DNA from: Mariniflexile sp. AS56
GTDB lineage: Bacteria; Bacteroidota; Bacteroidia; Flavobacteriales; Flavobacteriaceae
Length of the DNA stretch: 64,000 nucleotides
Reading direction: 5' to 3'
NCBI RefSeq assembly: GCF_030552475.1
Contig: NZ_JAUPED010000011.1
Location: 62,001-126,000, forward strand
The translations under genes and the position numbers were made by a program. How positions within the stretch are numbered: the stretch's first letter is position 1; each line of letters starts with the position of its first letter. This document shows positions 7,338 through 12,832 of the stretch, one piece after another. The notes below the pieces were generated by a model that saw only the letters and a program-made list of their open reading frames with translations, had not been told where the DNA came from and ran no database searches.

Positions 7338-7380
7338 CTCTTTGGTAGTCCGCAAGACAAAGTCTTAACGATCATTGGAA

Positions 7381-7445
7381 TGGTTACGAAGTCGGGAGAC
7401 TTCGTGTAGCATAAATTTTCGAGAAAGCATCGGAGAGCAGGGAAT
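7381..7445. repeat. REP-like hairpin repeat, copy A
   Basis: A 65-bp unit whose core is a perfect 8-bp palindrome with a GGGA loop, ACGAAGTC/GACTTCGT at 7386-7405. It is followed by a tail ending in TCGGAGAGCAGGGAAT. It matches 8151-8215 with only a handful of differences, and the stem differences compensate (ACG/CGT here, GCG/CGC there), so pairing is kept. The two copies bracket the small membrane protein gene. Confidence 0.75.
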
Positions 7446-7537: not shown

Positions 7538-7966
7538 ATGGATATAGTCTGGATAATTGTAAAATTTATAATTGCGAATATTTTATTATTTATTATATCA
7601 TCGACTTTAATTGGAATTATTATTCGAGGACTTTTTTACCAACAAACGGATAATACAACTAGTGAATATATTGCCGAATTGTATGAAAATAATCGAAAAA
7701 GAGGTTTAGCCTCTACTATAGTTACTTCTTGCTTAACAATTATATTATTCATATTTCTGTATAACTATACTAATGTCTATATAATACTAGGTATTCTTTT
7801 AAATATGATTACGAGAATAAAAGATTTATTAAATGAAATTAAAACTGGGATTAAGACAACAAAAAGAACAATGTCAAACGATGGATTGGATTTAATTCTG
7901 AACATTGTAACTTATTTAGGAATTGGAATTTTTAACTATGGACTATATTTGATGTGGATAAAATAA
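7538..7966 (+). CDS. Small integral membrane protein, unknown function
   Basis: I do not recognise this 142-residue protein. It has a hydrophobic N-terminal segment (residues about 5-32), a second pair near 63-95 (TIVTSCLTIILFIFLYN then VYIILGILLNMI) and a last one near 120-140. Basic residues between segments (NNRKRG, KTTKRT) point to cytoplasmic loops. It lies alone between two REP-like repeats, and its lower-GC, ATA-rich codon use differs from the Moco genes upstream, so recent insertion of the block is possible. Confidence 0.6.
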   Translation: MDIVWIIVKFIIANILLFIISSTLIGIIIRGLFYQQTDNTTSEYIAELYENNRKRGLASTIVTSCLTIILFIFLYNYTNVYIILGILLNMITRIKDLLNEIKTGIKTTKRTMSNDGLDLILNIVTYLGIGIFNYGLYLMWIK

Positions 7967-8126: not shown

Positions 8127-8150
8127 CCACAAGTATTACGACCTATTGTG

Positions 8151-8215
8151 ATGGTTGCGAAGTCGGGAGACTTCGCACAGCATAAGTTCCCGAGAAAGCT
8201 TCGGAGAGCAGGGAA
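8151..8215. repeat. REP-like hairpin repeat, copy B
   Basis: Second full copy of the 65-bp unit. Its core GCGAAGTC-GGGA-GACTTCGC is at 8157-8176, followed by the tail AGCATAAGTTCCCGAG and ending TCGGAGAGCAGGGAAT. TTCCC and GGGAA in the tail can also pair. Confidence 0.75.
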
Positions 8216-8355
8216 TTCGCACAGCATAAACAATAATAACTGGGTTTTTATCGGCCTAAAATATAATTACTTCAAAGCCAAGGACTATTATTATATTAAA
8301 AAATCAATCTCAACTTCAAGACAGAAACTATCTAGGCATAATAAATCAAAATAAT

Positions 8356-9573
8356 TTATTTCACCCGTTTTTCTTGCTTTAAACGCTCTCCAACTACTGT
8401 ATAAGACATTTGATCATGAAATAGCTTTTTATACTTTTTGAAGGTAAATATTTGAATTATTATTGGGACCACAAGAATGTAAGTATAAGGCATGATAAAT
8501 CTTAGTATATTTCTAAAAAAAGCTTTAAAAAATCCAACAGGATCACCATTTCTCTCTGTAATCTCCAGTTTCATAATGCGTTTGCCAAAAGTCCCTTTCC
8601 ACTTCGAGGATTCAAAAACGGCACATACGGTAAAATACACTAAAATAAATAATAATAGTGATGTGTCAGATGGCTCATATTCAACTTCAATATCATCCAT
8701 AGTCATAACTTCAATAATTATCCATAAGAAATATATGGGTACAAATGTTAAAAACTGATCCAAAATAAAGGCGGCACCTCGTTTCATAAGGGTTCTTCCG
8801 TAGTAGTTTTTTCTATAGTCTACTTCTAAATTAACATGCGCTATTTTTTTGCGTGTCGGTGTCTTTTTTACGGAAGGTGCTGGTGCTGGTGCTTTCTCCG
8901 TTACAGGTTCTGCTTTAGTAATCTCTTCTACAACCTCTTCGTTCTTATCAATGAGTAATTCTGCCTTTTCTGAAATTTCGTTTTCTGATATATTTTCAAT
9001 AATATCTTCGGCAACAGTTCTAGATTCTGTTAAAGAGGATAATTGTTCTTCAGCAATGTGTTCAACAATTTCGTCTTCCTCTTCGTTAAAATCGTTAATC
9101 GATTCATATATATCATTTACTACTGAGGTTAAAGCATCATCTTCACTATTCCAATATTGTCTATTATTAAGTGGTTGCGTATTTTTAGGTAATAAAGGTA
9201 AATTAACAAAGGGTGTTGACTTCCACATGCAGTTTCGTACCAAAATTGGTAACATGACTGTTTCGCCTTTATTGTAACGTTCAATAACTTTTTGGGTGCG
9301 TATGTATGTTTGATCGTCATTAATAAAATCGGCACTTATAAAAGCTAAAACAATATCAGCATCATACAATTGAAGCTTATAGCTGTTTATATCTTGTCCT
9401 GCTGGAATTTCGAAATCACTCAGTATTTCAATTGGGATCTTAGAATTTCGAACAACGGGAGAAAGGTATTTTTTTATCGCTTTAGATTGCTCCTCATCTT
9501 CTGGAGCTGCAAGAAAATAAACGGTTATTTTTCCTTTACCTGTAGAGACTGCGGAAGGGGTTGTTGTCGACAT
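8356..9573 (-). CDS. TIR-like domain fused to RDD membrane domain
   Basis: A 405-residue two-part protein. Residues about 14-160 form a TIR-like fold: strand KITVYFLAAPEDEEQ, DADIVLAFISADFI, then VMLPILVRNCMWKSTPF and LPLLPKNTQPL. These match the neighbouring TIR protein block by block. The position of that protein's catalytic glutamate holds Thr93/Gln94, so NADase activity is unlikely. An acidic linker (about 160-250) leads to an RDD domain (about 253-400) with RGAAFILDQFL, three or four membrane spans and the family's GTFGKRIMKLEI. It would be membrane-anchored with the TIR in the cytoplasm. It is the second gene of a minus-strand pair, 65 bases after the TIR gene. A role in immunity or stress signalling is inference. 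Confidence 0.8.
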   Translation of the reverse strand: MSTTTPSAVSTGKGKITVYFLAAPEDEEQSKAIKKYLSPVVRNSKIPIEILSDFEIPAGQDINSYKLQLYDADIVLAFISADFINDDQTYIRTQKVIERYNKGETVMLPILVRNCMWKSTPFVNLPLLPKNTQPLNNRQYWNSEDDALTSVVNDIYESINDFNEEEDEIVEHIAEEQLSSLTESRTVAEDIIENISENEISEKAELLIDKNEEVVEEITKAEPVTEKAPAPAPSVKKTPTRKKIAHVNLEVDYRKNYYGRTLMKRGAAFILDQFLTFVPIYFLWIIIEVMTMDDIEVEYEPSDTSLLLFILVYFTVCAVFESSKWKGTFGKRIMKLEITERNGDPVGFFKAFFRNILRFIMPYTYILVVPIIIQIFTFKKYKKLFHDQMSYTVVGERLKQEKRVK

Positions 9574-9638
9574 AAAAGTTAATTTTTTGGTTAGTTAAAA
9601 TTATTTTTTGCTAATCAACGTTTATAGGGGGAATTCTT

Positions 9639-10097
9639 TTATTTGGATAAAATATAATCAACAAGACGTTCTATTCCTGTAGCTACTTCTGTAAATGCGA
9701 CATCTTTATCGTCATAATCTGAAATTGGACGCGCATTTTTAGGTAAGGCTTGTAATTTTGCAAACGGCATACTTGTCCACTTACAACTCCTTAAAATAAC
9801 GGGAACAACAAAAGCGGTTCCTGCTTCATGCCTTTTCATGGCTTCCGCAAGCTCTGTGTCCCAAATAAAATCGGAAGCAATAAAATCGACACTTACTAAT
9901 AGTAAAATAATATTGGCTTTGGCAAATTCACTCATAATGCCTTCATTCCATTCTTGACCAGCGATTAATTCTCGATCATTCCAGGCGTCAATTTTTCCTG
10001 AACGTTTTAACACTTTTAAATATTTATCCATTTCATCTTTAAGCCCTTCGTCTTCATGAGCGTATGATGTGAATATTTTAACGGCTTTACTAGACAT
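9639..10097 (-). CDS. Standalone TIR domain protein
   Basis: A 152-residue single-domain TIR protein. It starts VKIFTSYAHEDE (strand A and first loop), has a BB-loop-like stretch DAWNDRELIAGQEW (37-50), strand IILLLVSVDFI, and WDTEL with Glu82 at the place of the catalytic glutamate of NAD-cleaving TIRs. VVPVILRSCKW and LPKNARPISDYDDKD complete the fold. Bacterial TIRs of this type are usually effectors of defence or conflict systems, but it has no sensor domain of its own. The only partner in sight is the downstream membrane TIR-RDD gene. Alternative: a signalling adaptor without enzymatic activity. Confidence 0.85.
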   Translation of the reverse strand: MSSKAVKIFTSYAHEDEGLKDEMDKYLKVLKRSGKIDAWNDRELIAGQEWNEGIMSEFAKANIILLLVSVDFIASDFIWDTELAEAMKRHEAGTAFVVPVILRSCKWTSMPFAKLQALPKNARPISDYDDKDVAFTEVATGIERLVDYILSK

Positions 10098-10497: not shown

Positions 10498-11607
10498 ATG
10501 AAGAGAGTCCTCGTTATTTTATGCGCCGTTTTTGCGATAGGTTGTAATAACACCAAAAAAGAACAACAATCAATAAATTCAGAAATTAAACAAGACCCCA
10601 TGGCTGTGCTAAATTTAGAACAAGCGAATAAGTTGGCGCAATTGCCTTTAGAATGTATGAATACAGAATATCCAAATAGGCTATCGCAAACCTTGGGAGC
10701 TGATGCCGATTTAAAGGCACCCACAGTATTGCATCCTGCCTTTTATGGGTGTTTCGATTGGCATTCGTCCGTTCATGGACATTGGAGTTTGGTGAGTTTG
10801 TTAAAACGATTTCCAGACCTAGAGCATGCTAAAGAGATTAAACAAAAACTACTTCAAAATATATCCAAAGAAAACATAGAAGCAGAAGTTAGTTATTTTC
10901 ATGGTGAACATAATAAGTCTTTTGAGCGTACTTATGGTTGGGCATGGTTGTTAAAACTAGCAGAAGAATTGCATACTTGGGAAACACCTGTTGCTAGAGA
11001 GTTGGAAGCGAATTTGCAGCCGCTAACCCATTTAATAATTGAAAAGTATATCGAGTTTTTGCCAAAATTAAATTACCCGCTTCGGGTGGGAACGCATCCT
11101 AATACCGCGTTTGGCTTGTCCTTTGCGTATGATTATGCTGTAACCGTAAATAACGAAGCTTTGAAATTAGCTATTGAGGAGCGTGCTAAATTTTTCTTTT
11201 TAAACGACCAAGCCTGTCCAATGAGTTGGGAGCCTAGTGGCACCGATTTTTTATCACCTTGCTTGGAAGAGGCGGCATTAATGAAGCGCTTATTGTCTGT
11301 TGAAGCTTATAAGAAGTGGTTATCTGACTTTTTACCGCAATTAAAAGATAAAAAGTTTGCTTTGGAAGTAGGGGTGGTTTCAGATAGAACCGATGGACAT
11401 TTGGTGCATTTAGATGGTGTGAATTTTTCGCGTGCGTGGAGTTTAATTAAAATCTCAGAAAACCTTGCGGAATATCAGCATTTAAAAACGATTGCTTACG
11501 AGCATATAAATTATTCCTTGCCAAGTATTTTTGGTGATAGTTATGAAGGCGGACATTGGTTAGGTAGCTTTGCTATTTACGCATTGAATGCCGCTTCTCA
11601 TGATTAA
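10498..11607 (+). CDS. DUF2891 family lipoprotein
   Basis: A 369-residue protein with a lipoprotein signal (MKRVLVILCAVFAIGC, lipobox cysteine at residue 16). It carries the DUF2891 hallmark HPAFYGCFDWHSSVHGHW near residue 79. Helical repeats with paired WAW and HPNTAFG motifs suggest an alpha/alpha toroid fold, as in some polysaccharide lyases, but no catalytic site is known to me. It would sit in the periplasm or the outer membrane. Its end overlaps the start of the NRAMP-like gene, so it is translationally coupled to the 5-oxoprolinase operon, which suggests a linked function. Confidence 0.8.
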   Translation: MKRVLVILCAVFAIGCNNTKKEQQSINSEIKQDPMAVLNLEQANKLAQLPLECMNTEYPNRLSQTLGADADLKAPTVLHPAFYGCFDWHSSVHGHWSLVSLLKRFPDLEHAKEIKQKLLQNISKENIEAEVSYFHGEHNKSFERTYGWAWLLKLAEELHTWETPVARELEANLQPLTHLIIEKYIEFLPKLNYPLRVGTHPNTAFGLSFAYDYAVTVNNEALKLAIEERAKFFFLNDQACPMSWEPSGTDFLSPCLEEAALMKRLLSVEAYKKWLSDFLPQLKDKKFALEVGVVSDRTDGHLVHLDGVNFSRAWSLIKISENLAEYQHLKTIAYEHINYSLPSIFGDSYEGGHWLGSFAIYALNAASHD

Positions 11608-12832
11608 AAATTGGTTTAAAAACATAGGTCCAGGCCCTTTGGTGGCTGCGGCGTTTATAGGTCCAGGCACCGTGACGGTATGTACGCTTGCGGGTGTTCA
11701 TTTTGGGTACGCGTTGCTGTGGGCTATGGTTTTGTCTATTGCGGCAACTGTGGTGCTTCAAGAAATGTCTGCACGATTAGGACTTGTTTCTCAAAAAGGA
11801 CTGTCAGAAATTATAAGATCAGAAATCAAACATCCTGTGTTAAAAATACTAGCGGTTGGCTTAATACTCTTGGCTATTGTGGTGGGCAACGCCGCTTATG
11901 AGGCTGGTAATATTACGGGTGGTGTTTTGGGATTGGAAACCATTATGGGGAATCCAACAGTAGTTGTGGCGGGTTTTACAGTGAAAGGATTGAATCTGTT
12001 AATTGGTTTTATTGCTTTTGTGTTGCTTTATTTAGGGAGTTACAAAGTCATAGAGCGGGCTTTGGTGGCGCTTGTGTTGTTGATGAGTTTTGCCTTTTTG
12101 GTAACCACGATTATTACCAAGCCGAGTCTTACGGATATTTTTAAGAGTATTGTGTTGTCTAAAATGCCAAAAGGGAGCATCTTAACTATTATGGCCTTGA
12201 TAGGAACCACGGTTGTGCCTTATAATTTGTTTTTGCACGCGTCTTTGGTGAAAGAAAAATGGCATCATATATCCGATTTGAAGTTGGTAAAACGAGATAC
12301 TAGGGTAGCAATTGTTTTTGGAGGTATCGTGTCTATGTGTGTTGTAATTTCGGCTGCTTCAATAAACACGCAACATGTAGCAAATGTAGCCGATTTAGCT
12401 CTGGGCTTAGAGCCTTTGTTTGGTAGTTTTGCTAAATATTTTCTAGCTATAGGTTTGTTTTCTGCAGGTATTACGAGTGCAATTACGGCGCCTTTGGCGG
12501 CGGCTTTTGTAGCTACAGGTTGCTTGGGTTGGTCTACAAGTATGGCTGATAAAAAATTTAAAGCCGTATGGATGGTTATTTTAATACTTGGTATTGTGTT
12601 TTCGTCTTTGGGTGTAAAACCTATTGAAGTTATTAAATTTGCGCAAATTGCTAATGGTATTCTGTTGCCACTTATTGCTGGGTTTTTAATTTGGGTGGTT
12701 AATAAATCGTCTGTTTTAGGAATTTATAAAAATAATGTAGTTCAAAATATAGCAGCATTCCTTATCTTGCTTATTAGTATTTTATTGTCTCTCGTAACGC
12801 TTAATAACGTGTTGAATCTAAAACTGATTTAG
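11600..12832 (+). CDS. NRAMP-like transporter of the pxp operon, metal ligands missing
   Basis: A 410-residue membrane protein with about 11 spans and clear NRAMP homology: GPGPLVAAAFIGPGTVTV at the N-terminus and GTTVVPYNLFLHASLV in segment 6. The metal ligands are changed: DPGN in helix 1 reads GPGT, and the MPH of helix 6 reads VPY, so it is probably not a manganese or iron carrier. It resembles YcsG of Bacillus subtilis, which sits beside ycsF (pxpA) and kipI/kipA. A 5-oxoproline or other organic substrate is inferred. I chose ATG 11600 (MIKNWFKN), giving an 8-base overlap with the DUF2891 gene; ATG 11588 is also possible. Confidence 0.82.
   Translation: MIKNWFKNIGPGPLVAAAFIGPGTVTVCTLAGVHFGYALLWAMVLSIAATVVLQEMSARLGLVSQKGLSEIIRSEIKHPVLKILAVGLILLAIVVGNAAYEAGNITGGVLGLETIMGNPTVVVAGFTVKGLNLLIGFIAFVLLYLGSYKVIERALVALVLLMSFAFLVTTIITKPSLTDIFKSIVLSKMPKGSILTIMALIGTTVVPYNLFLHASLVKEKWHHISDLKLVKRDTRVAIVFGGIVSMCVVISAASINTQHVANVADLALGLEPLFGSFAKYFLAIGLFSAGITSAITAPLAAAFVATGCLGWSTSMADKKFKAVWMVILILGIVFSSLGVKPIEVIKFAQIANGILLPLIAGFLIWVVNKSSVLGIYKNNVVQNIAAFLILLISILLSLVTLNNVLNLKLI

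Follow-up and report, generated by a model that had tools for sequence, protein, structure and literature searches.

A conserved gene pair of an enzyme-type TIR and a degenerate membrane TIR-RDD protein in Flavobacteriaceae, a candidate Thoeris-like immune module

The window, a stretch of 64,000 nucleotides from Mariniflexile sp. AS56, carries on its reverse strand a gene for a short TIR protein and, downstream of it, a gene for a TIR-RDD protein, in which a degenerate TIR domain is joined by a linker to an RDD membrane domain (Table 1). Both reading frames are intact, as expected from the initial annotation, which had described an intact TIR with a membrane TIR-RDD partner and had correctly placed Glu82 in the WDTEL motif, Thr93/Gln94 at the matching position of the partner, and the RDD domain. 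The short TIR matches Pfam TIR_2 at 40.9 bits (cut-off 28) and the PADLOC ThsB model PDLC00420 at 172.6 bits (E 2.7e-51). The TIR-RDD protein matches Pfam RDD (PF06271) at 68.3 bits (cut-off 24.1) and the same ThsB model at 70.8 bits, and its TIR_2 score of 19.3 bits lies under the cut-off of 28. The TIR blocks said to be common to both proteins are seen in BLASTP as 33% identity across 135 residues (E 7e-21). From the spacing and the shared orientation of the two genes we infer one operon, as had been claimed; no terminator-like site was reported between them, and the promoter-like sites of the region, 12 against 13.2 in shuffles, showed no excess. The same pair, in the same order and on one strand, is found in three further genomes, Aequorivita todarodis (locus L036), G926 (L110) and G1017 (L112), where the gap between the genes is 35, 52, or 67 bp. 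Conservation of the two genes together in four genomes speaks for the pair as a unit, the point on which the initial annotation had staked its proposal, and the pair is thus a real, conserved two-gene unit.

Table 1. Features of the TIR/TIR-RDD locus, in window positions
Feature	Position	Strand	Remarks
Short TIR protein	9639..10097	-	152 aa with Glu82 retained; predicted to be an NAD-processing enzyme/sensor
Intergenic gap between short TIR and TIR-RDD	9574..9638	-	65 bp
TIR-RDD protein	8356..9573	-	405 aa; RDD membrane domain behind a degenerate TIR and a variable linker
Degenerate (pseudo-) TIR segment, residues 1-165	9079..9573	-	AlphaFold2 and PDB matches; Thr93/Gln94 replace catalytic Glu
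Linker, residues 161-250 (bounds chosen for rate comparison)	8824..9093	-	Fast-changing; 35% identity to G926
RDD membrane domain, residues 261-389	8407..8793	-	Three hydrophobic segments; R265, D272, D387 kept

Short TIR: The protein has the features of an enzyme-type TIR and is a predicted NADase. The catalytic Glu of TIR NADases is present at its position in the TIR fold, and in a PDB sequence search Glu82 stands opposite a Glu in At1g72930 and in Cat1, a CARF-TIR protein. The positions S11, Y12, W39, R42, W50, W79, and Glu82 are identical in all six close short TIRs, the window's counted. A wider set of 24 distinct TIR domains (45 rows minus 19 duplicates and 2 TIR-RDD rows; window, Aequorivita, and G042 included) has Tyr12 and Trp39 in every member, Ser11 in 23, and Glu in the Glu82 column in 23, the sole exception (L080) having a Glu one place earlier in the alignment. 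By profile resemblance, the short TIR would also qualify as ThsB, the TIR protein of Thoeris.

TIR-RDD protein: An AlphaFold2 model of residues 1-165 (pLDDT 81.1, pTM 0.79; from an alignment of 5 rows that included three other TIRs) returned nine PDB matches at E<=0.001, all of them TIR domains, TIR-APAZ or Cat1, and including the MAL filament, AbTir, and TRAM. The full-length model (2 rows) was poor, with a pLDDT of 44, and was set aside. MAL and TRAM are membrane-linked TIR adaptors; the likeness to these animal proteins, which act with MyD88, is an analogy only, as they are eukaryotic, belong to another pathway, and have no RDD. The catalytic Glu is absent at 93 and 94 in all four TIR-RDD proteins, which have T, T, T, F and Q, Q, Q, T at these places, and the equivalents of Tyr12 and Trp39 are missing in all four. 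In the window and Aequorivita proteins, Ser11 is replaced by Leu, Tyr12 by Ala, Trp39 by Glu/Leu, and the catalytic Glu by Thr. The second TIR is, by its sequence, a pseudo-enzyme. All four proteins share invariant stretches that differ from the enzyme, among them F20-L21-A22-A23 and N136-N137-x-Q139-x-W141-N142-S143-E144-D145-D146. Pfam gave no match to SIR2 or to a macro, SLOG, or other known ligand-binding domain, and no ThsA-type effector domain (SIR2-SLOG, TM-macro, caspase-like) was found, only RDD and the weak TIR_2 match.

The pseudo-TIR could bind, as its receptor, a nucleotide that the short TIR produces, with no direct docking between the proteins, an explanation that we regard as unlikely. 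Thoeris supplies a precedent, since the macro domain of type II ThsA senses His-ADPR (from the available portions of PMC11204291 and PMC12847820), and the invariant stretches peculiar to the pseudo-TIR would fit a role of this kind. However, the residues that are invariant or nearly so in the enzyme are replaced at the S11, Y12, W39, and E82 positions, and position 93 varies among the pseudo-TIRs.

Distribution: The Aequorivita todarodis (Flavobacteriaceae) pair, with the TIR 79% and the TIR-RDD protein 58% identical to those of the window, came from a scan of GTDB-species contigs for exact short peptides, which misses relatives such as G042 and so gives no measure of rarity. Among 149 relatives, the window genome included, the only other close short TIR is that of G042 (78%). 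Here the short TIR is intact and its partner is a remnant, an 88-residue open frame matched by TIR-RDD residues 4-56 at 53%. A search of 397 genomes of the family found a TIR at E<=1e-15 in 33 and a close short TIR (E<1e-80) in five, the window's genome being counted in both: three have the pair (window, G926, G1017), one has the TIR with a partner remnant (G042), and one, G860, has the intact TIR with a convergent membrane TIR. The latter, a 471-aa TIR protein encoded 51 bp away, has a single hydrophobic segment and does not match RDD. Two TIR genes lie next to each other (E<=1e-8, flanks up to ~1.5 kb on each side) at four of the five close-TIR loci, the fifth having the G042 remnant instead, versus none of 24 others; seven further matches, L031 and six that were shown with no locus, stand outside this count, and because the close loci are related by descent they are not independent events. 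Within the loci of this family search, an RDD lies beside a TIR only at three close-TIR loci. Profile searches with the TIR-RDD protein in samples of 395 genomes each from the order, the phylum, and the class (E limits 1e-8, 1e-8, and 1e-12, respectively; the samples overlap and all have the window genome; judged by match ranges) gave no further protein spanning both domains, the other matches being TIR-only or RDD-only. The pairs outside the window were found through short-TIR searches.

Altogether, an intact short TIR stands without TIR-RDD in two of six genomes, and TIR-RDD was met only together with a short TIR (4/4 found). The initial annotation had suggested that an active TIR is held by an inactive, membrane-linked one. 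Read as restraint, this would have the pseudo-TIR work like an antitoxin and keep the enzyme off until phage release it. The pairing of an enzyme-type with a Glu-less TIR bears out the first half of this proposal, and the membrane domain, the homologous TIRs, the conserved adjacency, and the occurrence of TIR-RDD only alongside a short TIR in the searches made would all suit a restraint. TIR-RDD is not needed to carry a short TIR, however, because G042 keeps only a remnant and G860 has no TIR-RDD. These cases are not conclusive, as the loss in G042 may be recent and the other adjacent membrane TIR of G860 could stand in for TIR-RDD. Restraint appears improbable to us; a receiving effector is favoured over it, short of proof, because short TIRs exist without TIR-RDD and TIR-RDD was found only with a TIR.

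Surroundings: The flanks differ in all six close-TIR genomes. They are Mg-chelatase/ComM-like and DUF2891 genes in the window, HD-domain and radical-SAM genes in Aequorivita, a DNA polymerase I gene in G926, acetyl-CoA-synthetase-like and MFS genes in G860, and a cyclase gene in G1017. The last locus (L112 7060-8418) encodes, downstream of the pair and reaching the contig end, a TPR protein with a match to the Pycsar PycC cyclase profile (57.2 bits). Beside the remnant and intact TIR of G042 (L025 4102-5190) lies a patatin phospholipase matching the PADLOC phospholipase 'Effector' profile at 195.2 bits. In the window, PADLOC matched two of 10 neighbouring genes, which are by Pfam a radical-SAM Mo-cofactor gene and the Mg-chelatase/ComM-like gene; none of the 10 had a Thoeris match, and the nearness to a defence island that had been raised as a check was not seen among them.

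The site itself varies. The ComM-like and DUF2891 genes are 3,180 bp apart in the window; G005 keeps both (96% and 71%) at a distance of 1,606 bp, with one gene of 172 codons between them. In the same-genus genome G003, genes for a 613-aa caspase (Peptidase_C14, 63.6 bits) and for EACC1 (31.0 bits) lie beside DUF2891 (L073 6451-8668), followed by a 172-aa gene that resembles the one in G005 by eye; the contig stops before any ComM-like gene, and the outer border is outside the sequence seen. G001 and G004 have different genes beside DUF2891. The DUF2891 interval may be an insertion site for two different immune-type modules, a hint that comes from one genome each. Near the pair, 72-nt direct repeats (7374-7445 and 8145-8216, 86%) with a palindromic core flank an ORF on the forward strand (7538-7966), and the core has 4 further copies with 1-2 mismatches on contig C12 of the same genome. 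This ORF, convergent to the pair, encodes a 142-aa predicted membrane protein with no Pfam/NCBIfam match over cut-off and no PADLOC match at E 0.001. On the other side, DUF2891 and a LamB/YcsF gene have an Nramp transporter gene (11588-12832, forward strand; Pfam 282 bits) between them; in four same-genus loci these two genes adjoin, and the transporter gene was not detected there by tblastn.

The patchy presence and the differing sites suggest that the module is probably mobile. The GC content of the two genes (0.359 and 0.337) is like that of the window (0.357) and so does not point to a recent arrival. Carriage of the pair by phage, prophage or plasmid was considered and rejected. Neither protein was matched in 50,697 phage records, two scans of IMG/VR with TIR-RDD found no relative, and a third, for which four short TIRs were used, returned a single distant TIR (35%, L080). 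Plasmid matches were all below 60% identity, with 22 records for TIR-RDD and 46 for the short TIR; among the TIR-RDD matches listed (20 of 22), only the TIR part was covered and the RDD part was not. No annotated TIR or RDD neighbour occurs at H21, H23, H24, and H27, four of the seven best plasmid matches of the short TIR. The distant TIR of the IMG/VR contig (L080 3410-4417) is a C-terminal domain in a protein among genes that look phage-structural by eye. The best plasmid match of the short TIR (53.6%) is the TIR of a CHAT-TIR fusion on a Calothrix plasmid (L076 3356-4459), which is followed by a CHASE2 protein.

RDD domain: The conserved R, D, and D of the RDD family are kept as R265, D272, and D387 in all four TIR-RDD proteins. 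According to the consulted part of PMC5996927, the RDD protein of H. andaensis works as a Na+(Li+,K+)/H+ antiporter, in which a second Asp (D158), four residues past the family Asp, is essential. The pair could accordingly have a non-defence role in housekeeping or stress signalling, with the RDD as an ion antiporter tuned by the TIRs. The kept R, D, and D would agree with such a function, which we hold to be quite unlikely; the pair is patchy and absent from all five other same-genus genomes searched, its surroundings differ genome by genome, and the place of the essential Asp, mapped to 391 by the +4 spacing and not by alignment, holds Y, Y, Y, and K in the four proteins. Because Tyr or Lys stands at this mapped position where the antiporter needs Asp, the RDD part more likely acts on the membrane in some way different from the known antiport. 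RDD is also listed among CRISPR-linked domains in a figure legend (from the portion of PMC10910872 available).

Selection: The parts of the pair have changed at different rates, which are given as dN because dS is saturated in most comparisons. Between the window and G926, dN is 0.06 for both the short TIR (dS 1.57) and the pseudo-TIR (dS saturated), 0.35 for the RDD, and 0.66 for the linker, so that the RDD has changed ~6x and the linker ~11x faster than the pseudo-TIR. Between the window and Aequorivita, the values are 0.15 for the short TIR, 0.14 for the pseudo-TIR, 0.43 for the RDD, and 0.98 for the linker. The pseudo-TIR and enzyme values in the three comparisons without G1017 are 0.06/0.06, 0.14/0.15, and 0.14/0.13. 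The three G1017 comparisons give 0.30-0.33 for the pseudo-TIR versus 0.14-0.17 for the TIR, about twice as much, with 0.55-0.65 for the RDD; the co-conservation of the two TIRs is thus not tight everywhere. In each of the six comparisons, the pseudo-TIR has changed less than the RDD to which it is fused, and among three of the four genomes it is kept about as strictly as the enzyme. Mirror-tree correlations of 0.68 and 0.72, from 6 dependent pairs, were set aside.

A decaying second copy of a tandem duplication, fused by chance to a membrane domain, would also leave two homologous TIRs of which one has no catalytic Glu; G042 has one such decayed partner, and in G1017 this copy has diverged further than the short TIR. 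However, the degenerate domain has changed no faster than the enzyme in the comparisons without G1017, and the four reading frames are intact with the fused domains kept in all four. This conservation counts against decay, which is largely refuted and in our judgement extremely improbable. The slow change means that the degenerate domain probably has a job, most likely in receiving the partner TIR or the partner's signal. Docking would predict an asymmetry between the halves of the domain, and the excess identity to the enzyme in the C-terminal half of the pseudo-TIR (+0.06 and +0.07, where 23 other TIR domains range from -0.21 to +0.08) is suggestive at most.

Known systems: The statement that no described system has this pair agrees with our literature searches on TIR with RDD, Thoeris types, and inactive or membrane bacterial TIRs, whose coverage leaves out most subscription journals. 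Thoeris type II (a TM-macro ThsA with one or two ThsB, such as ThsB1/ThsB2 of E. coli CFT073) resembles the pair in that a TIR enzyme adjoins a membrane effector and that two TIR proteins are possible, one of them without detected NADase activity (as far as the partial text of PMC11204291 goes). In contrast, its ThsA receives by a macro domain, whereas here the degenerate TIR would receive and the membrane part is an RDD; moreover, EcThsB2 keeps its Glu (E89) and the pseudo-TIR has none. In Thoeris type I, ThsB with a SIR2-SLOG ThsA, ThsB is the closest PADLOC profile for both TIR domains, but the partner here has no SIR2 or SLOG match. TIR NADases assemble head to tail, and in SpbK, STING-TIR, and SPARTA the composite active sites between two neighbouring TIRs leave a place for a non-catalytic TIR (taken from the obtainable sections of PMC12847820 and PMC10474274). 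These systems differ in that one TIR polypeptide assembles with itself, whereas here there are two homologous TIRs, one of them Glu-less. The PADLOC profile of the PD-T4-6 defence protein matches the RDD part (30.2 bits); PD-T4-6 is a serine/threonine-kinase-related module, with no TIR named in the available text of PMC11514479.

By its relations and setting, the pair likely has an immune role. The proposed module is mobile and Thoeris-like, with two genes and a membrane effector, and we consider the balance for and against it to be even. In such a module, the short TIR would be a sensor-enzyme that assembles upon infection and converts NAD+, and the TIR-RDD protein would be the membrane effector, with the degenerate TIR as its receiving part. 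The latter would dock onto the assembling partner TIR or, less likely, bind its product. Docking would then cluster or gate the RDD domain, and the resulting membrane leak or ion imbalance would stop the infected cell. Lacking a catalytic Glu itself, a membrane TIR could fill one place in a TIR assembly or sense the assembly. The analysis establishes the two genes, the lost catalytic-side residues, the linkage in four genomes with differing surroundings, the patchiness, and a far stronger conservation of the degenerate TIR than of the RDD; NAD+ turnover, docking, membrane action, and phage defence are what we infer.

A bolder and more tentative idea, possible rather than probable, is a new type of immune relay between TIRs: a onetime TIR enzyme would have become the part of a membrane effector that receives the signal. 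The live TIR would nucleate on, or be read by, its dead membrane-tethered paralogue, a bacterial counterpart of membrane TIR adaptors that would switch on an RDD instead of SIR2, macro, or caspase domains. If this is true, RDD would be an added membrane effector of TIR immune systems, where TIR enzymes are already paired with a membrane effector in type II Thoeris (the available part of PMC11204291), and a little-understood domain would gain a role in immunity. The dead TIR would be a new mode of signal reception, and the pair would offer a minimal two-gene bacterial system for direct tests of how the TIR of an enzyme and that of a membrane protein recognise each other.

The arrangement of a live TIR next to a membrane TIR-like protein may be more widespread. 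In G184, a TIR has two TM segments. In G531 (L063 7220-16470), a run of genes encodes a MAP3K_TRAF_bd/TPR-S protein, a TM protein, a coiled-coil TM protein, a short TIR 47% identical to that of the window, an LRR-Roc-COR-TIR protein, and more TIR proteins. The TM protein has no Pfam or PADLOC match and is TIR-like by eye in its N-terminal part, and the run as a whole looks like a large TIR conflict cluster.
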